The notes under the pieces: generated by a model
Database searches by the model: none
The model's input: only the letters and a program-made list of their open reading frames with translations
What the model was told of the DNA's origin: nothing
Virus record (IMG/VR): IMGVR_UViG_3300029908_000143
Coordinates: 1 to 24,476 of that record
DNA: 24,476 nt
Source: a virus
Reading direction: 5' to 3' (one strand)
Shown here: one piece after another, positions 5,664-20,781 of the stretch
Numbering within the stretch: the first letter of the stretch is position 1
How the letters are laid out: each line of letters starts with the position of its first letter
Position numbers and translations under genes: made by a program

Positions 5664-5855
5664 TCACTCCTCCTGAACAAACCTAGCGACAGCCTGACAG
5701 ACTGTTCGGACGCCTAGTTTATCTTTAGAGCTTCGGATGTAAATCTTTATCATCGACAGAGATAAATTCAGATTTCTCGCAACGTGCTTATATGTATCTC
5801 CCTGAGAAACCATTCTAAGGATTTCAATCTCACGCGCATTAAGCTGTTTGATCAT
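5664..5855 (-). CDS. Stand-alone LuxR/GerE-type HTH protein
   Basis: This 63-residue protein is almost entirely a LuxR-type (GerE) helix-turn-helix. It starts 'LNAREIEILRMVSQGDTYK', continues with 'VARNLNLSLSMIKIYIRSS' and ends 'KDKLGVRTVCQAVARFV'. The family pattern LT.RE.EVL..V..G.....IA..L..S...V..H...I..KLGV..R..A is clear. There is no receiver or ligand-binding domain, so it is probably a constitutive DNA-binding factor. It overlaps the Bbp19-like gene by 4 bases (ATGA) with AAGGA upstream, so it is co-translated with head genes, just before the gap preceding the scaffold gene. Its target is not visible from sequence. Confidence 0.85.
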   Translation of the reverse strand: MIKQLNAREIEILRMVSQGDTYKHVARNLNLSLSMIKIYIRSSKDKLGVRTVCQAVARFVQEE

Positions 5856-9678: not shown

Positions 9679-9901
9679 CTTTCCTCCATTGCTCTCTAAT
9701 ACGCTCATCATCGACTTTCTGGTCAGCTTCGTCCTTCTGCTGCGCAGCAACCCCATCCCAATACCCCATGCGGGTATATTCGCTCGTTGTTTCAGATGGC
9801 GGTGGCGACCAAGAATACCCAGCTTCAAACCCATGGTCGTAATCATAGTCACCACCAAAAGCAGGGGCAGCAACAATCAAAAACATCAAAACATATTTCA
9901 T
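9656..9901 (-). CDS. Small exported protein in the packaging operon
   Basis: This 81-residue protein starts MKYVLMFLIVAAPAFGG, a convincing short signal peptide with likely cleavage after AFG. No lipobox Cys is present. The mature part is Tyr/Asp-rich at first ('DYDYDHGFEAGYSW'), then proline-containing, and ends in a strongly charged helix. It overlaps the TerL gene by 4 bases (ATGA) with AAGGAAG upstream, so it is co-translated with TerL. Function is unknown; an exported protein in this place could act in the periplasm during lysis or exclusion, but nothing proves that. Confidence 0.7.
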   Translation of the reverse strand: MKYVLMFLIVAAPAFGGDYDYDHGFEAGYSWSPPPSETTSEYTRMGYWDGVAAQQKDEADQKVDDERIREQWRKDEDTHTR

Positions 9902-11457
9902 GTGCTCTTCCTTATGTGCTCGTCAGACAATGGATCGTAAAATCCAGTAAAGCCACTCCCGCTCCTACGCCTGCTATTAAACGCCTCATAGTGGTCACTC
10001 GGAACTACGTTGAACGCGAACGAAACAGCCAGAGCGTCCGCTTTATCAGGAGAAACACCAAGTCGTTTCTTCATATCAGCCTTCTTTTCCAGCAAAATAC
10101 AATCATGCCCGTCCTTCATCGCATAACCATACTCAACAGCCGTCAATTCCTTCGCCAACTCCGCATCATCAGGTATCGCCCCACCAGCCAACCAGTCACG
10201 CATACGACCATAGATTTCGGCTCGTTTGTTATAAAAACGAACAGCGCCATCAACCATAGAGCTATCAGAATCAGCATTCGCTCCAAACTGCACCTCAAGC
10301 ACAGGCTGTTTCAACATTCTTAGTCGATCTACAACACCGCCACCAACACCGCCGCCGTCTACCATGATTGCATCTGGCTTATACATCGCTGCCAGATCAA
10401 TAATCCTCTGCGCAACCGCCATCGTATCAGCGCCGCGCATCATAACCCAAGGAATCGTTCTCGCATCTCTACCACGGCGCACTACAATTACCGTAGCATC
10501 CGCGCCGAACCTTCCTACGTCACACGAAATCACGCAAGGGTCGTGAAAATCATAATACGCTTCCCTCTTTCGTGCAGCTTCAACAATATCTCCACCAATA
10601 AACTGAGAATTCCCACTCCGAGGAAACACACCGCGCACACGAACACGAAAGAAATCGCTATCTTCCCCATAATCCTCTCTCCATTCCTCAATCTGCTGCT
10701 TATTCGTGATCTTTACAGTACGACTATCAACCGTCGTGCATATCCACCGATGCTTCATCGTCGTAAAACACTCGCTAAACGCCCCAGTGTTTCGCGTCGG
10801 GTTGCCGAAAGCGTGCATGTGAGGCTCTCCATCGGTAAGACCCCCTTCAGCGACTTTCCAGATGATGTCTGGCACAGCTGAGGCCTCGTCGAAGATGTAG
10901 AATGGCGTCGAATTTGCTGCGTGAAGTCCAGCGAAAGCTTCGCTTTGTTCTTCGCGGCAAGTTATCGCATCACACCGCCATGTCTCAGAGAAATCATTAT
11001 GATAAATTCTTAGTGCGCCCTTGCCCGTGTTTATCGTAAACCAGTTTCCCGTAACACATATGTTGGTCCATTTATTTAATTCGCTCCAAGTTTTTGATTC
11101 AAGCTGCGTACTCGTGTTCGCTGTAACAACACCTTTGCAGTGTGGGCGCGTTGACATTGTCCACAATATAATCCACGCAGTCATTGCCGACTTGCCCACC
11201 CCATGACCTGATGTTGTTGCCATCCGGATAGCTGGAACTGCCGCGCTACCATCGAAGCCGCGCTTTTTTACTTCTTCGCCAAGACGGATGAGATATTTCG
11301 ATGCCCATTCATCAGGCCCTCCAAATCCCTTTAGCATATTCCCATCCCAAGGAAATGCCCACAGCACAAAACCAAGAGGATCATTATAAAATTGTGCGAC
11401 TTCTTCGGCCAGTGAATTGAATGTTCGCCCTCCGTAGGTGCATGGATATACGCTCAT
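9898..11457 (-). CDS. terL: Terminase large subunit
   Basis: This roughly 519-residue protein has both terminase domains. The positions here count from an upstream in-frame ATG at 11478. The ATPase has Walker A 'SGHGVGKSA' (90-98) and Walker B 'FYIFDEAS' (193-200). The RNase H-like nuclease has D320 in 'SCDVGRFGAD', D374 in 'IMVDGGGVGGGVVD' and a third acidic site in 'DKADALAVSF' (D478/D481). It cuts concatemeric DNA and pumps it into the prohead through the portal. The start at 11457 (MSVYPC) is preferred since GGAAG sits close before it, whereas the ATG at 11478 has no good site. It lies downstream of two small genes and the promoter at 12139-12167. Confidence 0.93.
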   Translation of the reverse strand: MSVYPCTYGGRTFNSLAEEVAQFYNDPLGFVLWAFPWDGNMLKGFGGPDEWASKYLIRLGEEVKKRGFDGSAAVPAIRMATTSGHGVGKSAMTAWIILWTMSTRPHCKGVVTANTSTQLESKTWSELNKWTNICVTGNWFTINTGKGALRIYHNDFSETWRCDAITCREEQSEAFAGLHAANSTPFYIFDEASAVPDIIWKVAEGGLTDGEPHMHAFGNPTRNTGAFSECFTTMKHRWICTTVDSRTVKITNKQQIEEWREDYGEDSDFFRVRVRGVFPRSGNSQFIGGDIVEAARKREAYYDFHDPCVISCDVGRFGADATVIVVRRGRDARTIPWVMMRGADTMAVAQRIIDLAAMYKPDAIMVDGGGVGGGVVDRLRMLKQPVLEVQFGANADSDSSMVDGAVRFYNKRAEIYGRMRDWLAGGAIPDDAELAKELTAVEYGYAMKDGHDCILLEKKADMKKRLGVSPDKADALAVSFAFNVVPSDHYEAFNSRRRSGSGFTGFYDPLSDEHIRKST

Positions 11458-11521
11458 AACAATCTTCCGTTTCTCCATCCATTGCGAGAAAGATAATCAC
11501 ATAAAGTTGTTATAGGGGCGC

Positions 11522-11650
11522 TCATTTCGCCGCACTCGCTATCTTCCTCAACCACTCGCTCACAGACAACGACATCTTCCCAGCCTTAGCCGCAATATCA
11601 GCCTTCTCCTTCGTCGTAACACGAAGCTGTATCAGTTCATTTCGTTCCAT
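11522..11650 (-). CDS. Small MobC/ribbon-helix-helix-like protein
   Basis: This 42-residue protein starts MERNELIQLRVTTKEKADI and ends in 'GKMSLSVSEWLRKIASAAK'. The pattern 'I.LRVT..EK..I...A...G.S.SEWLR...' is that of small ribbon-helix-helix or MobC-type DNA-binding proteins. The ATG at 11650 is chosen because GGAAGG lies upstream and the earlier in-frame start would run through the Arg/Gly shadow of the previous gene. It overlaps that gene by 14 bases. As a small DNA-binding protein next to TerL it could regulate the operon or assist packaging. Both are inference. Confidence 0.65.
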   Translation of the reverse strand: MERNELIQLRVTTKEKADIAAKAGKMSLSVSEWLRKIASAAK

Positions 11651-12110
11651 TTTTATTAACCTTCCGACATGCCTTCCGAGATGCCTTCCGTGAAACCTTC
11701 CCCTTAACCTTCTGCGTAAACTTCTTATCATATTCCTGAAGCCCATCCAAAATACGAGACTTTATTTCTAACTCAACAAGCTTCGCACCCACCCTCTCAT
11801 CAATATCCCTTATCATCCCATCAAAGGATTCAATCTTTAACTGCATCCCGTTCAACGCATTGATCGCATGATGCCAATTCGCCTGATGCATCTCATTTAT
11901 CGTCTCAAGAAAAACACGGTCTTTTTTCTGCCCCAAGATAAGTTCAGCCATTCCGTCTTGAATGCATGATACAACCTCAACTTCTATTGGATTTACACCA
12001 TACATAGACACATGAGGTACATTAACTTCATTCGCAGAATCATCAGTATCTGTCACAATCATCTTAGGCGCATACATAGATCGCATCATATTCCCTAAAA
12101 ACTTAATCAT
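11637..12110 (-). CDS. Hypothetical protein between TerS-like and TerL genes
   Basis: This 157-residue protein is unrecognised. The N-terminal third is mixed ('VNVPHVSMYGVNPIEVEVV'), residues 60-130 look helical and could form a coiled coil, and the last 25 residues are extremely basic. That tail contains a repeated 4-residue unit (SRKA, SRKA, CRKV) encoded by a 12-base tandem repeat. The tail may bind nucleic acid. It is the first gene after the minus-strand promoter at 12139-12167. GGGGTA upstream of the ATG can serve as ribosome-binding site. A packaging accessory role is possible from position only. Confidence 0.65.
   Translation of the reverse strand: MIKFLGNMMRSMYAPKMIVTDTDDSANEVNVPHVSMYGVNPIEVEVVSCIQDGMAELILGQKKDRVFLETINEMHQANWHHAINALNGMQLKIESFDGMIRDIDERVGAKLVELEIKSRILDGLQEYDKKFTQKVKGKVSRKASRKACRKVNKNGTK
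11660..11703. repeat. 12-base tandem repeat (about 3.7 copies)
   Basis: On the plus strand the units are CCTTCCGACATG, CCTTCCGAGATG, CCTTCCGTGAAA and a partial CCTTCCCC. It encodes the basic tail repeat of the minus-strand gene ending at 11637, and its first unit also supplies the GGAAGG ribosome-binding site of the next gene. Such in-frame minisatellites can change copy number by slippage. Confidence 0.7.
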
Positions 12111-12287: not shown

Positions 12288-12310
12288 GTAGCTTCGCTTC
12301 GCGAAGCTAC
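12288..12310 (-). terminator. Hairpin at the end of the TerS-like gene
   Basis: GTAGCTTCG and CGAAGCTAC form a perfect 9-base stem with a 5-base loop (CTTCG), overlapping the stop codon of the minus-strand TerS-like gene. On the minus strand a TTTTT run follows only about 20 bases later, after a G-rich stretch, so it is not a textbook intrinsic terminator. It probably ends or stabilises the TerS message. The remaining bases of this gap (12111-12287) hold the operon promoter and nothing else I can identify. Confidence 0.5.
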
Positions 12311-12771
12311 TTAAGCCTCGATCCGCGCCTCGCGCTTGTCCTCGTCGATAGCACAGGCGAAGGCTCAGACTCTACCACGCTATAGCTAACCTCTGGCAAT
12401 GCCTCACCTCTAGACAACGCCACACGCCTGCGCCCCTCTAGTAATGCCGCCTCTGTTTCGACCGAAACGGAAACTTTAGCATCAACGTGCTGGACAGCCC
12501 TGCCAACCGTCCGATCTAACATCCGCTCCCGCTCAACCGCGCAGTCGAGATCATCGCCAGCCTTGAGCATGTTAGCTATTTGTATTAGGACGATTGCAGA
12601 CCAACTTCCCAGTTTGTCGAGGCGGGCGGGGTCGGCGGCGATAGCGAGTATTTCGCTAGGCGAATAACGCTCCATGAGAGCAGTCGCAACATCGCCCTGT
12701 GTGGCAAATACAGAGGGCTTGCGACCGTTTGGATTTCCGGACACTCCCGGGAGCCAGTTAGGGTTAGCCAT
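12307..12771 (-). CDS. Putative terminase small subunit (NPNGR-type)
   Basis: This 154-residue protein begins with 'MANPNWLPGVSGNPNGRKP', the N-terminal motif shared by many phage and transposon proteins of the DUF5681 kind, often annotated as terminase small subunit. The helical core includes 'ERERMLDRTVGRAVQHVDAK', reminiscent of TerS ('DR..GK...K.E'). The tail is Ser/Arg-rich. TerS binds the packaging site and hands DNA to TerL, which lies two genes downstream. Unlike nearly all neighbours it has no recognisable Shine-Dalgarno (TTTTTCAT before the ATG), perhaps because the IS200-type element lies only about 60 bases upstream. The TerS assignment is an inference from motif and position. Confidence 0.65.
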   Translation of the reverse strand: MANPNWLPGVSGNPNGRKPSVFATQGDVATALMERYSPSEILAIAADPARLDKLGSWSAIVLIQIANMLKAGDDLDCAVERERMLDRTVGRAVQHVDAKVSVSVETEAALLEGRRRVALSRGEALPEVSYSVVESEPSPVLSTRTSARRGSRLK

Positions 12772-12830
12772 ATGAAAAACAAATGTTAACGACTGTACTG
12801 ATTAATGATTGCCTAAATTTTGAGCAAAAG

Positions 12831-13268
12831 TCAACCACAAATTAACTTGATGGCTTGAGGCGAGTCATCTTGATTCTCGATGTACTTCTTTACCATCTGC
12901 TCTGTCACCGCACCAACAGTGCAGCAGAAGTATCCTTGTGACCACAAGTGACTTCCCCAGTACCGCTTTTTCAGTTGTGGAAACTCTCGCTGTAGCCGAT
13001 ACGAGCTTTTACCCTTCAGATACTGCGCCATTTTCGCGGGGGAAAGGTGACTAGGCGCACTTATCAGAACGTGCACGTGATTCGACCTCACATTCCCGCT
13101 CACAACACTCATTTCATTCTCGCTGCATATCTGCCTCAGCAAGTCTCTCAGCCGTAATCCCACATTCCCTCTCAGAACCGCATAGCTGTACTTCGTTTTC
13201 CATACAAAGTGGTACTTCAGCTCCAGTACCGTATGGGCTCCTCGGTCATATCTATCTTTCCCAAACAT
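12831..13268 (-). mobile_element. tnpA: IS200/IS605-family Y1 transposase (TnpA)
   Basis: This 145-residue protein is complete and of normal length for an IS200-type transposase. It has the HUH motif H64-V-H66 ('NVRSNHVHVLIS') and the catalytic tyrosine Y129 in 'VTEQMVKKYIENQ'. The start 'LELKYHFVWKTKYSYAVL' and 'YWGSHLWSQGYFCCTVG' are also typical. Such enzymes cut and rejoin single-stranded DNA at hairpin-marked ends without terminal repeats or target duplication. No TnpB partner is present, so this is an IS200-like solo element. All key residues are intact, so it could be active. AGGGAG precedes the ATG. Confidence 0.92.
12849..12869 (-). repeat. Candidate right-end palindrome of the IS200-type element
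   Basis: GATGGCT and AGTCATC on the plus strand form a 7-base imperfect stem with a 7-base loop inside the 3' end of tnpA. IS200-type elements have imperfect palindromes near each end that TnpA binds. The exact cleavage site cannot be fixed here. The bases from 12772 to 12830 between TerS and tnpA hold no gene. Confidence 0.3.
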
Positions 13269-13279
13269 TCACCCACTCC

Positions 13280-13298
13280 CTTGATCTCAAAACTCAAG
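13280..13298 (-). promoter_or_regulatory. Hairpin upstream of the tnpA start
   Basis: CTTGA and TCAAG form a 5-base stem with a 9-base loop, whose edge touches the AGGGAG ribosome-binding site of tnpA. IS200 transposase messages are known to hide their ribosome-binding site in a stem, so this could be the equivalent. The stem is short, so confidence is low. Confidence 0.3.
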
Positions 13299-13342
13299 CT
13301 TTCTTGGCTTTAATATCAAAAGAGCTAGCTAAAGGCTAATTC

Positions 13343-13354
13343 CGCCTAAAGGCG
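13343..13354. repeat. Candidate left-end hairpin of the IS200-type element
   Basis: CGCC-TAAA-GGCG is a tight stem-loop about 75 bases before the tnpA start, in the context GGCTAATTCCGCC, with no coding sequence around it. Left-end palindromes of IS200-type elements occur at about this place. The outer boundary of the element probably lies a little beyond, but cannot be fixed without an empty-site comparison. Confidence 0.4.
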
Positions 13355-13469
13355 AAGGTTTATACCCGACCAAGTGGAAATGAAACTGCCTATTTTACAA
13401 TCGTTACGTTTCACACTGTGGAACTGATTCAACATAATAATCAAAACAAAACATGAACGAACACTTAAC

Positions 13470-13499
13470 AATTGTTCGCAAAGGCGTTTGCAAACAATT
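13470..13499. repeat. Inverted repeat, operator- or iteron-like
   Basis: AATTGTTCGCAAA (13470-13482) and TTTGCAAACAATT (13487-13499) match as an inverted pair at 12 of 13 positions around a 4-base centre. The same 13-mer recurs at 13706-13718. This is a probable binding site for a dimeric DNA-binding protein, or a cruciform-capable site. Confidence 0.7.
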
Positions 13500-13695
13500 A
13501 CCATTAATTATTCATCTTTACAATCAATGGGATAGTGGGTGTTTTGGGGGTATTTTTAATTGATTTCCGAATCTCAATATAAAATAAAATATAAAAGTGC
13601 CTTATAGTGGGGGGGAGAGAGAGTAAAGGGTATATTAAAAAAAATATATATTAAATAAGAATAGATACGATTTGTCCTTTGTTTAGTGGGCTTAG

Positions 13696-13718
13696 AATTG
13701 TTTACAATTGTTTGCAAA
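13696..13718. repeat. Third AATTGTTTGCAAA copy fused to a perfect palindrome
   Basis: AATTGTTTACAATT (13696-13709) is a perfect palindrome. It overlaps by four bases AATTGTTTGCAAA (13706-13718), which is identical to the minus-strand reading of the site at 13487-13499. Recurrence over 200 bases of noncoding DNA suggests a common binding protein. Confidence 0.7.
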
Positions 13719-13763
13719 GCGGATACCGACAATTAAAAAACATCGCGCACAATGCGTGGTCTA

Positions 13764-13790
13764 CCTAACCTAGCCAGCGGGGTTTTTTAT
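13764..13790 (+). terminator. Weak candidate intrinsic terminator
   Basis: AACCT and GGGGTT can form a 5-base stem around GCCAGC, followed directly by six T residues and ATTG. It would stop plus-strand transcription entering from the AT-rich region before the early promoter. The stem is short, so the call is tentative. Confidence 0.3.
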
Positions 13791-13833
13791 TGCCCCTATC
13801 CATCTGATACTATCTGATAGACATATTTTGTTG

Positions 13834-13862
13834 TTGACTTAAACCTATCCATTAGATATAGT
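13834..13862 (+). promoter_or_regulatory. Sigma70-like early promoter
   Basis: TTGACT (13834-13839) and TATAGT (13857-13862) are separated by exactly 17 bases and lie about 46 bases before the first early gene. This is the best plus-strand promoter in the window and probably drives the small early genes. Operator-like repeats overlap the -10 and lie upstream of the -35, implying repression or activation by a phage or host factor. Confidence 0.75.
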
Positions 13863-13878
13863 GTTTATATCGATGGAT
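13847..13878. promoter_or_regulatory. Operator-like inverted repeat over the early promoter
   Basis: ATCCATTAGATATA (13847-13860) and, inverted, TATATCGATGGAT (13866-13878) are mirror copies apart from one extra base. They cover the -10 and the transcription start. A direct copy, ATCCATCTGATA, sits at 13798-13809. A bound protein would block the promoter. Confidence 0.55.
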
Positions 13879-13907
13879 TAACCCTCACACAAACTGGAGT
13901 TACCGAA

Positions 13908-14036
13908 ATGAAAACCTACCCCACATATGACCGCCGCCCGGTTTTACGAAAAGAACGTATCACAACGATTGTGACGGTTGTGCTGATTATCGTCGGCATT
14001 GCTATCGGCGCGTATATTGATGCACTGCCTCTGTAA
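13908..14036 (+). CDS. Small single-pass membrane protein
   Basis: This 42-residue protein has a charged N-terminus (MKTYPTYDRRPVLRKER), one transmembrane helix ('ITTIVTVVLIIVGIAIGAY') and a short tail. The orientation by charge is N-in. The ATG has GGAG upstream (ACTGGAGTTACC). It is the first gene after the early promoter, so it is expected early in infection, where small membrane proteins often act in exclusion or host takeover. That role is inference; no family is recognised. Confidence 0.6.
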   Translation: MKTYPTYDRRPVLRKERITTIVTVVLIIVGIAIGAYIDALPL

Positions 14037-14054
14037 AACCCATAGGAGTCGCAC

Positions 14055-14231
14055 ATGACTACAAACAGAAAAGGAAACACCATGACCACCACCACCACAC
14101 AAACACAAGAAATCCTCGAAATCCTGAAAGACAAAGGATTCGATTTTATCGACGCTTGCGAAGCTGAAAGCTGGACGGCTGAAACGGATTTTCAGGAAGT
14201 CTTGCGCGAGCGCGTGAATGAACAAGACTAA
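14055..14231 (+). CDS. Small acidic early protein
   Basis: This 58-residue protein starts MTTNRKGNTMTTTTTQTQ and continues with an acidic helical region ('ILEILKDKGFDFIDACEAES' to 'ETDFQEVLRERVNEQD'). Two start codons are equally good: the ATG at 14055 has AGGAGTC upstream and the ATG at 14082 has AAAAGGAA, so two forms differing by nine residues may be made. Function is unknown. The gene ends 20 bases before the next start. Confidence 0.55.
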   Translation: MTTNRKGNTMTTTTTQTQEILEILKDKGFDFIDACEAESWTAETDFQEVLRERVNEQD

Positions 14232-14251
14232 AAGAAAACGATCCCTCTTTG

Positions 14252-14407
14252 ATGGAAAGTCTGGAACTTGCGAAAGAGTACGGATTTACTCTGGATAAGA
14301 TCAACTCGGAATTTCTGGCAACTATCCATTACCAAAACGCGCTGTCCGAAAAGATAGGCGGTGCCGTGGAAGTACTCGAGGGATATTTTGCCGATAAGTC
14401 CGAATAA
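14252..14407 (+). CDS. Small early protein
   Basis: This 51-residue helical, acidic protein begins MESLELAKEYGFTLDKINSE and ends 'GGAVEVLEGYFADKSE'. There is no Shine-Dalgarno before the ATG, so translation may depend on reinitiation from the upstream gene. The reading frame is bounded by neighbours with good spacing and has phage-like codon use. Its call is less sure than its neighbours'. Confidence 0.45.
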   Translation: MESLELAKEYGFTLDKINSEFLATIHYQNALSEKIGGAVEVLEGYFADKSE

Positions 14408-14432
14408 CCCACACACACGAAAGGAATCTCCC

Positions 14433-14774
14433 ATGATACACCCCACACTTACACAGGCGCACGACACCATAATCGACCTAATCGCCGTTCTCAAAATTGA
14501 GATTGCCGCCGATAGGGACGCAGGAATCCCAGACGACGAAAACAGTCATATTATCTTGCTAAAAAACGCCAATCGCACGTTAAAAAATATCTGCCACGAC
14601 ATAGACAATACTTTGTCGATTGTGTGGCGCGTGGATGACGTCAGGAAAATCAACCCCAGATTATCGCTCAAAAAATGCCGTCAAGTTCTCGAACGTGTCG
14701 AACGCGATTGGGACGCTAGCAACGGTGTAACTTGGGATACGCTAGAGGCGACGATAGAAGACCTAAACCGTTAA
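14433..14774 (+). CDS. Hypothetical early protein
   Basis: This 113-residue, mostly helical protein is not recognised. It begins MIHPTLTQAHDTIIDLIAVL, has an acidic loop ('DRDAGIPDDENSHI') and ends in charged helices with 'RDWDASNGVTWDTLEATIEDL'. The ATG at 14433 is chosen since AAAGGAAT is well spaced before it; the upstream ATG at 14361 reads through the previous gene's coding region. It belongs to the early plus-strand operon. Confidence 0.65.
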   Translation: MIHPTLTQAHDTIIDLIAVLKIEIAADRDAGIPDDENSHIILLKNANRTLKNICHDIDNTLSIVWRVDDVRKINPRLSLKKCRQVLERVERDWDASNGVTWDTLEATIEDLNR

Positions 14775-14799
14775 CTTGCAAACACACAGGAGTCGAGTC

Positions 14800-14934
14800 A
14801 TGAAAGAATCAGCACTAGAAAAAGCCTATCGGATATACGGCGGCGGGAGTCCGCAACATCGCCGGGCGCTGATAGCCTATGAACGGCGAGTCTATGGTTG
14901 TCTTGTGAGTGAATTAACAAGGGGGACAAAATGA
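14800..14934 (+). CDS. Small basic early protein
   Basis: This 44-residue protein, MKESALEKAYRIYGGGSPQH continuing to 'RRALIAYERRVYGCLVSELT', is basic and rich in Arg and Tyr. The ATG has AGGAGTC upstream, the same leader used by several early genes here. Its stop overlaps the start of the next gene (ATGA), which supports it as a real coupled gene. No family is recognised. Confidence 0.6.
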   Translation: MKESALEKAYRIYGGGSPQHRRALIAYERRVYGCLVSELTRGTK

Positions 14935-15155
14935 CCGACTTATCGCACCTAGAAGCACTCACTCATCGCCTTGGCCGCGAAACATGCCGCATGAACAATG
15001 CGAAAAATGAAAACGAACGGTCTTTCCGCGAGCGCGAAATTGCTTCATGCCGTAAGGAGATTGAGGCTGAATACAAGTTTTTGGGCATTAAACCTTTGAC
15101 GATAGAAGAAACTATGATGAGTGACGACGAATTACTTGCCGAACTTACAGCTTAA
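14931..15155 (+). CDS. Small early protein
   Basis: This 74-residue charged helical protein probably forms a coiled coil ('LGRETCRMNNAKNENERSFR' and on to 'REIASCRKEIEAEYKFLGI'). It ends in a short acidic segment ('SDDELLAELTA'). The ATG overlaps the previous stop by 4 bases and AAGGGGG lies upstream. It is unrecognised. Confidence 0.6.
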   Translation: MTDLSHLEALTHRLGRETCRMNNAKNENERSFREREIASCRKEIEAEYKFLGIKPLTIEETMMSDDELLAELTA

Positions 15156-15228
15156 CCCTAGCCCCCCCCGTGGCATGATGCAACGGGAACGAAAAACAAC
15201 GCATAAGCCCCTGTAATAGTGTCGACCG

Positions 15229-15249
15229 TGCCAGTGCGGATCACTGGCA
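15229..15249 (+). promoter_or_regulatory. Hairpin in the gap before the ANARLIAAAPELLEAL-type gene
   Basis: TGCCAGT and ACTGGCA form a perfect 7-base stem with a 7-base loop in the 119-base gap (15156-15274). No T-run follows, so it is not an intrinsic terminator. It could be a processing or operator site. A run of eight C residues lies at the start of the same gap. Confidence 0.4.
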
Positions 15250-15274
15250 ACCTACAAACAAATAGGAGTCTATT

Positions 15275-15601
15275 ATGACTACACAACACACACCCGCACC
15301 TTTTCTAGTAATAGCGAACAACGGAACGCATGGAACATACATAAAGTCGGCAATAACAGGCGAATCAGTTTGCGACCTATACGTCATGACCGAGTCTAAA
15401 AAACTGTCTCAATTCATGGAGAGCGAGCCATTAGATTTTGCTAACGCCGAAAGCAATGCCCGACTAATCGCCGCCGCGCCTGAATTGCTGGAAGCACTGA
15501 TTGAACTTGACCAATGGGCGCAGGCGCAGCAACAGGAGGAATATCCGCAGGGCACCTTCGCGATTGTCCAAGAGGCTATCAACAAAGCAAGGGGAGTCTA
15601 G
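15275..15601 (+). CDS. Phage protein with 'ARLIAAAPELLEAL' motif
   Basis: This 108-residue protein carries 'DFANAESNARLIAAAPELLEALIELD', a motif I know from very many phage and prophage proteins of unknown function. The N-terminal part is a small beta domain ('PFLVIANNGTHGTYIKSAIT', then 'ESVCDLYV'), and the motif helix follows near residues 54-78. It is usually found among small early or accessory genes, as here. The ATG has AGGAGTC before it. The family is widespread and its biochemical role is not known to me. Confidence 0.8.
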   Translation: MTTQHTPAPFLVIANNGTHGTYIKSAITGESVCDLYVMTESKKLSQFMESEPLDFANAESNARLIAAAPELLEALIELDQWAQAQQQEEYPQGTFAIVQEAINKARGV

Positions 15602-16145: not shown

Positions 16146-16337
16146 ATGACGCCAGAAAAAATCAAAGAACTTCGCAAGTCACTAATGGAGACTCAAAATC
16201 AATTTGGCTCACGTCTTGGTATTGGCTGGCTCGCTGTTCATAGATTGGAGAAAGGAACAACGCAGGCTCGAGGTGCGGTGTTGAAGATTTTAGAAAAAAC
16301 GCAAAATGATTTGACTAAAGTCAAGGCATCAAAGTAA
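16146..16337 (+). CDS. Cro/Xre-like HTH regulator
   Basis: This 63-residue protein has one helix-turn-helix. It begins MTPEKIKELRKSLMETQNQF, and the HTH core is 'TQNQFGSRLGIGWLAVHRLEKG', the usual Xre pattern (TQ..FA..LGIS...V...E.G). It ends in a Lys-rich tail. It is small like lambda Cro and probably binds operators as a dimer. Good candidates in the window are the ATCCAT-type repeats around the early promoter or the AATTGTTTGCAAA dyads. It lies directly before the structured leader of the primase gene. AAAGG precedes the ATG. Confidence 0.8.
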   Translation: MTPEKIKELRKSLMETQNQFGSRLGIGWLAVHRLEKGTTQARGAVLKILEKTQNDLTKVKASK

Positions 16338-16430: not shown

Positions 16431-18617
16431 ATGCAGCTCAAAACATGGAATACAAAGAATAAGTTTCTGTCTTTTTGGGATAGCGCAACAACCAATCTTG
16501 TTTCTCAACATCCCTATATCAAGCGCAAAAATGTAAAGCCTTATGGGGTTCGCGTCATCAATGGCGAATTGGTTATACCAATCTATGACACAACCCAAAA
16601 AATAGTTGGCATCCAGACAATCAAAGAGAACGGCGAAAAGAAATTCGCTTTTGAAAGCAAGGTTGAGGGCAACTTTTTTGTTTTTAATGATAATTCAGAT
16701 AAACAAATCATTTATATTGCCGAGGGGTTCGCAACATGCGCGACCATAGCCGAAATAACGGGCTGCACCGTTGTTTGCGCGTTTAGCGCGGGAAACCTCA
16801 CAAAGGTTGCCAAGAACATACGCGATAGATTTAAGGGCGAGATCATTATCGCTGCGGATAATAAAAGCGCGGGAGAGATAAGCCTTGCCAATAAAGCAGC
16901 AAGAGAATGTGGTGGCTTTGTGGTTTTGCCAGCCGAAGGGCAGGATTTTAATGATATGGCAAATTCTGGAACCGATATTTTGCCCAATCTTTCCGAATAC
17001 AAAAAGCCAACCGAAATTGTGGAAGAAGTTAAGGTTTATAAGGATTACTCAAATTATGACGAAGATTTTGACGAAGAAACCATTAAGGATATGCTGTCTT
17101 ATGTCTCGCCGGACATTGGATACCACGAATGGATAGAGATTGGCATGTCCCTGAAGGCTGGTGGGGCTTCCCTGCGCGTTTGGGACGATTGGAGCAGCAA
17201 GGGTGGCTCTTATAAGAAAAACGACTGTGCGAGCCACTGGGGAAGCTTTAAGGGCAATGGCATAACAATAGGCACGCTGTGCCACCATGCCAAATTGAGC
17301 GGGTGGGAGAGAAAATACGAAAATCAGCCTGTTGTTGAGAAAAAATCAACTCTTGATATTGCTTCGATCATTGGCGGGTTTAGCAAGAAAAACATAAAAA
17401 AGGACGCCCCGATAGAATTTGACGGTCTTATCGGCGATACGGTCAAATGGATTGTTTCAACTGGCACATACAAACAACCGATGCTTGCTACCCTTAATGT
17501 GTTGGCGGCTCTGGGGGCTGTTTTTGGGCGCAAATACGCCAGCAAGATAAACACGCGCACAAATCTCTATATGGTTGGGGTTGCTGCTTCTGGCGGCGGA
17601 AAAGACCATTCCCGCCGCTGTATAGCCAATCTTATGACAGAAGCAGGGCTGTCGAACTTTCTAGGGGATAACGGGGTACGGTCTGATTCTGGTATTGTAA
17701 AATCCATTAGCGCACAAGCAAGCCAAGTAATGATGATTGATGAATTCGGCATCTTCTTGAAGGCGTTGAAAGACCAAAAAAGCGCGGGGCATATTAAGGC
17801 GGTTAGCAGCCTATTGTTGCAGCTCTATTCTTGTTCATCATCCATTTACAAACACGGCACATATGCCACGGATAAAATGGAATCCATGATTTTGCATTAT
17901 CCAAATCTTTGCATATACGGCACGACGACAGAAGAAATGTATGCTGGGGCTATATCAAAAGAAGGCATCAAGAGTGGGGAACTCAACAGATTTATTGTGC
18001 TGTTTGGCGACGACAATGCCGAACCTTGCCATAATATAGAGCAGGGCGAAGCCCCCGCCTTACTTGTCGAGGCATGGAAAGCATTTAATACAAATCCAAC
18101 TGGCGACAGCCTTGGTGTATCCAATGATGCGAAGATAGCAGTTAAGCCCTTTATAGTTGGTTGGGGGGATTGCTGGGATGATATTTGCGCCCTGCTGGAT
18201 TATCAACATTCAAAACGGAATGAAGAAAACTCCGCTCTATGGGTTCGCTATCGTGAAAATATTATAAAAATTGCTATGATATACGCGCTATCGGAATTCA
18301 AATTTGAATTAGACAAGAAACACATAGAGACTGCAAAATACTATGTAGAGGCATCCGTAAAATATATGGATAAACTGGCTAAGACGCACATGGCTGAGAA
18401 CCAGTGGGAAGAACTGTATAATGAATTCATCCATCTTTTAGAAAAGAATGATGGGGAGATGCGTAAGGTAGACTTATTGAAGGCGATGAAAAAGGTCAAA
18501 AGAAGAGATGTCGCGGAGATGCTCGAGGGGATGAAGGATTCCGGAACCATCTCAATAGAGGGTAGGGTTTCTAACGAAAAGGCAGGGAGGCCTACCGTCT
18601 ATGTCAAACTTATGTAA
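16431..18617 (+). CDS. Toprim primase / helicase fusion protein
   Basis: This 728-residue protein has three regions. Residues 20-175 match the Toprim_3 type of phage primase, with 'HPYIKRKNV', 'ELVIPIYD', 'IYIAEGFATCATI' (E98) and 'IIIAADNKSAG' (D143, but K145 where the DxD motif expects Asp). Residues 215-292 match PriCT-2 ('YHEWIEIGMSLKAGG' to 'W..W'). Residues 330-560 are a DUF3987-like helicase or ATPase with Walker A 'GVAASGGGKDHS' (383-394) and Walker B 'VMMIDEFG' (433-440). The last 60 residues look like a winged helix. It would prime and unwind phage DNA at the fork. The ATG has only a weak GGTG upstream. It is the first replication gene after the structured leader. Confidence 0.85.
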   Translation: MQLKTWNTKNKFLSFWDSATTNLVSQHPYIKRKNVKPYGVRVINGELVIPIYDTTQKIVGIQTIKENGEKKFAFESKVEGNFFVFNDNSDKQIIYIAEGFATCATIAEITGCTVVCAFSAGNLTKVAKNIRDRFKGEIIIAADNKSAGEISLANKAARECGGFVVLPAEGQDFNDMANSGTDILPNLSEYKKPTEIVEEVKVYKDYSNYDEDFDEETIKDMLSYVSPDIGYHEWIEIGMSLKAGGASLRVWDDWSSKGGSYKKNDCASHWGSFKGNGITIGTLCHHAKLSGWERKYENQPVVEKKSTLDIASIIGGFSKKNIKKDAPIEFDGLIGDTVKWIVSTGTYKQPMLATLNVLAALGAVFGRKYASKINTRTNLYMVGVAASGGGKDHSRRCIANLMTEAGLSNFLGDNGVRSDSGIVKSISAQASQVMMIDEFGIFLKALKDQKSAGHIKAVSSLLLQLYSCSSSIYKHGTYATDKMESMILHYPNLCIYGTTTEEMYAGAISKEGIKSGELNRFIVLFGDDNAEPCHNIEQGEAPALLVEAWKAFNTNPTGDSLGVSNDAKIAVKPFIVGWGDCWDDICALLDYQHSKRNEENSALWVRYRENIIKIAMIYALSEFKFELDKKHIETAKYYVEASVKYMDKLAKTHMAENQWEELYNEFIHLLEKNDGEMRKVDLLKAMKKVKRRDVAEMLEGMKDSGTISIEGRVSNEKAGRPTVYVKLM

Positions 18618-19108: not shown

Positions 19109-19440
19109 ATGTTAAGTAACCACACCGACTTTTCCAAGTTTACTGATAGCGAACTTGAAGCAACCTTAGAACGGGTTGATGTTGAACTCAAAGAAATCCA
19201 GAACACAAGAAAGCAGATCGTGGAAACGGGATAAGGCTGAACCTTATGGATTGGTTCATGTTGGGAATCTCACTGTAGATTTCCCCAAAAAAGTTACCTA
19301 TGACCAGAAATCCTTAAAAATCTTAGCTCAACAAATCATGAGCGCAGGCGAAGACCCAGCCGAATACATCGACATTAAGTATGACGTTAAGGAAGTCAAG
19401 CGTGTTAACAACCAAAGATGGGGAAATGGAGCAAGAATAA
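19109..19440 (+). pseudogene. Frame-disrupted small recombination-module gene
   Basis: A good start (AAAAGGAAACTCAA before the ATG) opens a 41-residue frame that begins MLSNHTDFSKFTDSELEATL and stops at 19232-19234. One base further along (+1), a conserved-looking protein continues: 'KAEPYGLVHVGNLTVDFPKK', then 'VTYDQKSLKILAQQIMSAGE' and 'DPAEYIDIKYDVKEVK'. This second frame has no start of its own, since its first ATG lacks any ribosome-binding site. Joining at the GGG of 19228-19230 gives one protein of usual shape for small phage proteins preceding Sak4-like genes. The second frame then runs on into the next gene; a further +1 step near 19401 would instead reach a TAA at 19438, two bases before the next ATG. 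It may be a decayed gene, a sequence error or programmed frameshifting. Confidence 0.6.
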
Positions 19441-19441
19441 A

Positions 19442-20218
19442 ATGGCAATCTCACTCGAAACACTCAAAAAAGGCGTATCTAAAGCACCCCCACGCATTCT
19501 CATGTATGGGGCTGAAAAGATAGGCAAGACCAGCCTGGCAGCAAATGCACCAAACCCCATATTTCTTCGCACAGAAGATGGCGAGGGAAAGCTTGATATG
19601 ACAAGCTGGGATTTGAAATCATATGATGATTTTGTTGAGGCGATTAATGTTCTTGCAACACAAGAGCATGAATTCCAAACAATTGTCATCGACACTATTG
19701 ATTGGTTCGAGCCAATGATCTTTGCAAAGGTCATTGCAGACCGACCCCAGAATGAAAAGGGCAAGGCTGTAACCAATATTGATGATTATGGTTATGGCAA
19801 GGGCTACCTGTACGCAATGGACTATTGGGGGCAGGTTATTGATGGGCTTAACTATCTTAGAACGACAAAGGATATGATGGTTATTCTCTTGGCGCATACT
19901 CACATTAAGTCATACAGCCCACCAGACAGTGAGTCCTATGATCGTTTTACCTTAAAGATGAACGAGAAGGCTTCTGAAAAATTGATGGAGTTTGTGGATT
20001 GTATTTTCTTCGCAAGGAAGAAGATTTTCGTGCGCGAAGATGATGTGAGTGGAAAGAATAAAGCTGTTGGAACTTCGGACAGTCGTGAGATTATGACTGA
20101 AAGCCTTCCAAGCTTTAGGGCAGGAAATCGCTACAATCTTCCTGCAATCATACCGCTTGATGCAAACGCTTGGGATGTAATCGCCTCAAACATCCCTTAC
20201 TTCGATAAGTTCAAATAA
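19442..20218 (+). CDS. Sak4-like RecA-fold ATPase (AAA_24 type)
   Basis: This 258-residue protein has the short Walker A 'GAEKIGKTS' (23-31) right after 'PPRILMY', a conserved 'LRTEDGEG' strand, and Walker B 'TIVIDTID' (80-87), then 'ILLAHTHIK'. This is the AAA_24/Sak4 arrangement: a RecA-like core without the C-terminal domains. Such proteins anneal or pair DNA together with a phage ssDNA-binding protein, and the DUF669-like gene follows directly. The ATG at 19442 is chosen for GGAG upstream and the 'MAISLETL' start usual for the family; an in-frame ATG at 19418 is weaker. Confident of the ATPase, moderately of its recombination role. Confidence 0.85.
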   Translation: MAISLETLKKGVSKAPPRILMYGAEKIGKTSLAANAPNPIFLRTEDGEGKLDMTSWDLKSYDDFVEAINVLATQEHEFQTIVIDTIDWFEPMIFAKVIADRPQNEKGKAVTNIDDYGYGKGYLYAMDYWGQVIDGLNYLRTTKDMMVILLAHTHIKSYSPPDSESYDRFTLKMNEKASEKLMEFVDCIFFARKKIFVREDDVSGKNKAVGTSDSREIMTESLPSFRAGNRYNLPAIIPLDANAWDVIASNIPYFDKFK

Positions 20219-20241: not shown

Positions 20242-20781
20242 ATGACAGACCTTACAAGCCTTAACATCCAAGCTAAAGACAATAGCGCACCAGAATACAC
20301 CCTGTGGCCGAAGGGCTACTATAAAGTTGTCGCCATAAAGGAAGAACTGAAGGACTCGTCTTCGGGCGGCAAGTATATCTCAATTGAATTTGAGGTTATC
20401 GACAACAAGCGCAAGTTATGGGGAAGCTACAACATTGTGAATTCAAATGCGGTAACCGTTAAAATTGCGACTGAGCAGCTAGAAAGCTTTGCTTGGGCAG
20501 TTAACATAGCGATGCTCAAAACAAGCGAGGAACTCCTTTACAAAGAATTTAATGCCTATATCGACATCACGCCGGAATCCACTGGCAAGAATGGTACGGT
20601 TTATAAAGCAAAAAACGAGATTAAAGGTTATTACCCCATTTCATGGACGGTGAGCGAGATTGAAGCACATCGCAAGGGTAAGAGCAAAACAGGTGAAAGC
20701 GCCGGTGTTCCGCACACCGCCGCTACTAATACGCCTGTCGGTGCTTCGGCAAGCCCTTGGGCGCGGAAGGCTGCTACCTAG
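20242..20781 (+). CDS. DUF669 ssDNA-binding-like protein
   Basis: This 179-residue protein fits the DUF669 family: 'LWPKGYYKVVAIKEELKDSS', then 'GGKYISIEFEVIDNKRKLWG', 'AVTVKIATEQLESFAWAV' and 'KNEIKGYYP'. It ends in a flexible Ala/Pro/Thr tail with a terminal aromatic ('ASPWARKAAT'). DUF669 proteins have an OB-fold-like core and act as ssDNA-binding partners of phage recombinases. The gene follows the Sak4-like ATPase after 23 bases, with AAAGGAA before the ATG. The tail is low in acidic residues, unlike classical SSB tips. Confidence 0.85.
   Translation: MTDLTSLNIQAKDNSAPEYTLWPKGYYKVVAIKEELKDSSSGGKYISIEFEVIDNKRKLWGSYNIVNSNAVTVKIATEQLESFAWAVNIAMLKTSEELLYKEFNAYIDITPESTGKNGTVYKAKNEIKGYYPISWTVSEIEAHRKGKSKTGESAGVPHTAATNTPVGASASPWARKAAT

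Follow-up and report, generated by a model that had tools for sequence, protein, structure and literature searches.

The DNA analysed here, a virus record of 24,476 bases in a single contig, assigned to an uncultured tailed phage (the window), contains a predicted early promoter accompanied by two copies of a dyad element, CCTATCCATNNGATA, which we tentatively read as an operator for Cro-like feedback with a small HTH protein as its binder (probability of about 36%, judged from sequence comparison). The promoter and its repeats occupy the divergent gap between leftward packaging and structural genes and rightward replication genes, and the first rightward reading frame starts at 13908, directly downstream of them (Table 1).

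Table 1. Positions of the control elements and genes considered in the window
Feature	Position	Strand or direction	Remark
CCTATCCATNNGATA copy 1	13795-13809	+	TATC-N5-GATA at 13797-13809; not in L043
ATCTGATAGACATAT	13812-13826	+	element kept in L043, 14/15
Sigma-70-type promoter TTGACT-17-TATAGT	13834-13862	+	predicted, 10/12 consensus matches
CCTATCCATNNGATA copy 2	13844-13858	+	TATC-N5-GATA at 13846-13858, overlaps -10
Inverted ATCCATCGATATA arm	13866-13878	-	over predicted start
Stand-alone GerE/NarL-type HTH	5664-5855	-	over Pfam cut-off
Large terminase	9898-11478	-	
NikA-like protein	11522-11746	-	over Pfam cut-off
Packaging and structural genes	below about 12.8 kb	leftward	
63-aa HTH protein (XRE / MqsA C-terminal type)	16146-16337	+	just before primase, candidate binder
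Primase	16431-18617	rightward	
Sak4-like protein	19418-20218	rightward	
SSB-like protein	20242-20781	rightward	

Relatives were collected by terminase search (39 loci), two primase searches (4 and 3 loci) and a Sak4-like search (80 of 324 kept). When positions 13280-13960 were compared by blastn with 123 loci, only the same virus (L002/L044) and one other contig (L043, identical to L045 and L046) were recovered, all other matches being of 35 bases or fewer. L002/L044 is 99.99% identical to the window over 8,390 bases and is thus the same virus, adding no independent evidence. L043, a 52-kb IMG/VR record, was therefore the sole independent relative found to span the region, so that only two phages could be compared; no relative of the region came from the genome collection, and among phage records the intergenic region matched only short strings. 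The large terminase is about 50% identical to terminases of Vibrio, Pseudomonas and Salmonella phages, and the terminase search, with its 39 loci, did not recover L043 despite its similar replication genes, which points to a possible exchange of modules. An IS200-like transposase (12831-13268, minus strand; Pfam Y1_Tnp) lies in the space separating the promoter gap from the frame at 12307-12771; L043 has nothing of the kind between the corresponding genes.

The letters and coordinates of the TTGACT-17-TATAGT promoter were given correctly in the original prediction, and its near-consensus hexamers and their spacing, within 16-18 bp, conform to the sigma-70 type. A promoter scan of 12500-15500 returned 4 matches versus 4.6 expected by chance, so the consensus match by itself is not unusual. 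The element precedes the rightward replication genes, and L043 carries a promoter, TTGACA-16-TATATT, at the corresponding place (11/12 consensus matches, the best score in its region). All plus-strand terminator-like sites that were found lie outside the interval from the promoter to the HTH gene. TTGACT-17-TATAGT thus looks like the promoter of the rightward early (replication-module) operon.

The repeat strings are also where they had been placed, with ATCCATCTGATA at 13798-13809 and ATCCATTAGATA at 13847-13858, and the inverted arm is indeed the reverse complement of ATCCATCGATATA. The inverted pair does cover the -10 and the predicted start, with its component parts offset from each other by half a base (the centre is 13862.5 for ATCCAT/ATGGAT versus 13863 for GATATA/TATATC). 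ATCTGATA, said to recur one helical turn apart, is present at 13802 and 13812, its only two occurrences on that strand of the contig, with none on the other; this 10-bp repetition is within chance, and the element is single in L043. In shuffles of 13790-13907, the inverted 13-mer was equalled in 115 of 300 and the exact 8-mer repeat in 36 of 300, and the contig as a whole has 49 pairs of 8-mers spaced by no more than 30 bp. For three ATCCAT in 81 bp, the probability anywhere in the contig is 0.07; 54 clusters of a triple 6-mer within 84 bp were counted there. ATCCATNNGATA, when at most one mismatch was allowed, gave 4 matches versus 1.85 expected, a count reached in 10 of 100 shuffles. Individually, the triple ATCCAT, the inverted arm and the ATCTGATA pair are all weak, being close to chance expectation.

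The CCTATCCATNNGATA pair is above chance, by a modest excess. Its two copies form a 15-mer direct repeat (CCTATCCATCTGATA and CCTATCCATTAGATA, starting at 13795 and 13844) that is identical at 13 of 15 positions over a 49-bp separation, and a pair as good was reached in 4/300, 3/300 and 18/300 shuffles of 13790-13907, 13722-13907 and 13587-13907, respectively. Across the 24.5 kb contig there is just one other pair of this kind with a separation of up to 60 bp. Furthermore, the contig has three TATC-N5-GATA sites, two of which lie around the promoter, and a dyad class of this form, whichever it is, occurs twice in 13 of 2033 sampled 84-bp segments, which overlap one another. Both the word length of 15 and the dyad class were picked after the sequence was seen, and these repeat statistics therefore flatter the case. 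The exact inverted arrangement of the window has no other occurrence in IMG/VR. The original prediction was that the array looks like a cooperative operator, and cooperativity is not supported by the phasing: the best copies are 49 bp apart, or 4.7 turns at 10.5 bp per turn, which speaks against simple side-by-side cooperativity.

Comparison with L043 preserves some of the array and removes the rest. The relative has no ATCCAT element in its intergenic region, so these proposed half-sites are not conserved, while one ATCTGATA element is kept: downstream of a shared non-coding block, L043 has ATCTGATAAACATAT, a match equalled in 2 of 1000 shuffles. The combination ATCTGATARACATAT...TTGACWTAA was found in IMG/VR in these two viruses only, with 22 bp from the start of the shared upstream element to the -35 in the window versus 40 bp in L043. 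The best local alignment matches the -35 regions (1/500 shuffles as good), and positions 13863-13883 agree with L043 at 16 of 21 (49/1000 shuffles as good). Global alignment was not significant over a wider stretch (64/500 shuffles), compared with 2/500 for 13797-13907. The local alignment opens a 10-bp gap opposite CCATTAGATA of the window, into which the 13844-13858 copy falls; hence the -10 hexamers of the two phages do not correspond base for base. Over its own -10 and start, L043 carries a different dyad, the perfect 12-bp palindrome TTGATATATCAA, one of three such palindromes in 22 kb.

Of the small DNA-binding proteins encoded in the window, three in number, only the XRE/MqsA-type HTH has a counterpart in the L043 record, at the same gene position before the primase; neither the GerE/NarL-type HTH nor the NikA-like protein is matched there. 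Taken alone, the HTH of the window is below the Pfam cut-offs, and its L043 counterpart is above them. A joint profile of the two matches MqsA at 2.8e-8, and its sequence matches include a HipB and a weak C2. A structure predicted from the two sequences was not informative (mean pLDDT 78.8, pTM 0.45; helices merged), and PADLOC returned only a weak capH match. The two HTH proteins are 34% identical, compared with 63% for the primases and 73% for the Sak4-like proteins, as predicted for an operator and a repressor that evolve in step. A fast-evolving HTH unrelated to the repeats would give the same pattern, and such a protein need not bind the promoter region.

Known operators offer partial parallels. 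In lambdoid phages, as for P22 C2 and 434, a small XRE-type HTH is encoded in the early operon and dyads overlap the early promoter. The window would resemble these Cro/C2-type systems in its candidate early-operon XRE-type HTH and its operator-like dyads at the promoter; unlike in them, its dyads do not form a regular three-site array, no CI-type repressor gene is seen and no integrase family match was obtained in the window or in the L043 record. The operator of MqsA is an AACCT/AGGTT palindrome. Although the C-terminal domain of MqsA is the nearest match of the window's HTH, this protein, at 63 aa, is too short to include the zinc domain, and no palindrome of this consensus is seen in 13700-13910. 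The NarL heptamer is TACYYMT. NarL dimers bind inverted heptamers in a 7-2-7' arrangement (PMC2718512), and reading of the region reveals no inverted TATCCAT pair so arranged. For HipB, the operator consensus is TATCCN8GGATA (PMC3376134). The half-site of this hipBA operator, TATCC, is shared, and HipB is among the matches to the HTH profile, but the full pattern is missing from the window, where TATCC...GGATA with N6 to N10 has 0 matches.

The non-coding DNA upstream of the repeats has features of its own. Positions 13587-13721, a candidate replication origin, are 74% identical to L043, versus 65-71% for neighbouring coding DNA, whereas 13722-13796 is largely absent from L043. The conserved block consists of a G-rich run, an A+T-rich stretch and then the 10-bp repeats TTAGAATTGT, TTACAATTGT and TTGCAAAGCG. 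In IMG/VR, AATTGTTTNCAATTGNTTGCAA was found in 4 contigs, namely the same virus, L043, L131 and L132, the last two of which are unrelated by tblastx and carry it inside a 270-aa reading frame. An imperfect hairpin at 13466-13503, the fold of which was beaten or equalled by only 4 of 200 shuffles, bears in its arms the AATTGTTYGCAAA string of the repeat at 13704-13719. The cumulative GC skew of the contig is minimal at about 15 kb, where genes also switch strand. Closer to the promoter, GCCAGCGGGGTTTTTTATTGCC (13773-13794) has a 22/22 match in Vibrio phage records, where it is intergenic, and occurs in L019 with a mismatch. It resembles the 3' arm of a terminator; the scan found no proper stem, and the Vibrio phage records have no terminator annotation under these matches. 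The region yielded no Rfam match and no tRNA, and neither 13728-13796 nor 13587-13722 folded clearly better than shuffled sequences, whichever strand was taken.

From the elements, the gene order and their partial conservation, all read directly in the two phages, we infer a scheme of transcription, binding, repression and binder identity as follows. Host RNA polymerase would start the rightward operon from TTGACT-17-TATAGT, and a small phage DNA-binding protein would turn this promoter down once enough of it had been made, in the manner of Cro. The most likely operator would be the two CCTATCCATNNGATA copies, the first lying upstream and the second across the -10, and the likeliest binder the 63-aa HTH of the same operon, which would cover the -10 from copy 2 and make additional contacts at copy 1 and ATCTGATA. 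The operator would be lineage-specific, perhaps serving the operon's own XRE-type HTH. Consistent with this scheme are the rarity of the 15-mer pair, the position of dyads at the promoter and the L043 palindrome; counting against it are the repeats that are mostly near chance, the failure of ATCCAT to be kept and the sub-threshold Pfam scores of the HTH alone. The operator claim of the original prediction is thus plausible but unproven: operator-like dyads do overlap the -10 of a well-placed early promoter, and of the repeats checked for conservation in L043, as the original prediction had asked, the ATCCAT half-sites are missing and only the ATCTGATA element is kept.

It is possible, if doubtful, that the early promoter lies in A+T-rich DNA whose repeats arose by chance and bind nothing but RNA polymerase. 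The near-chance frequencies of the 8-mer, inverted and triple-6-mer repeats fit such an origin, as does the absence of the ATCCAT sites from L043, but the contig has few pairs like the 15-mer one, which coincides exactly with the promoter and places a dyad across the -10. A more upstream functional site is unlikely: here the conserved ATCTGATARACATAT would be an activator site or upstream promoter element and the ATCCAT copies incidental. Its 14/15 identity in L043, the low shuffle count and the restriction of its pairing with TTGACWTAA to two viruses would agree with this, yet the match could reflect common ancestry of closely related DNA, and a distance to the -35 that differs by a non-integral number of helical turns is unusual for a fixed activator site.

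A still less probable arrangement has ATCCAT read by another protein, be it the GerE/NarL-type HTH, the NikA-like protein or a host regulator. Both families are encoded in the window, the L043 record lacks both them and the repeats, and TATCCAT resembles the consensus of the NarL heptamer; against this, no inverted pair at the 7-2-7' spacing is seen, and the comparison involves two phages with records that may be incomplete. Among these explanations, Cro-like feedback through the CCTATCCATNNGATA copies is the one we prefer. Since the one relative does not share most of the repeats, the region is probably of an ordinary type for viral control: a phage early promoter, one repeat pair of which may be an operator.

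The two phages could also represent a fast-evolving operator/repressor pair in a lineage without visible integrase, in which promoter position and upstream element are kept while the -10 dyad and the HTH are replaced together, although we consider this rather unlikely. If the operator is not real, the region is an ordinary phage promoter. If it is real, it would constitute a compact switch for early genes in a little-known phage lineage, and an example of an operator that changes along with its regulator while the promoter stays fixed.
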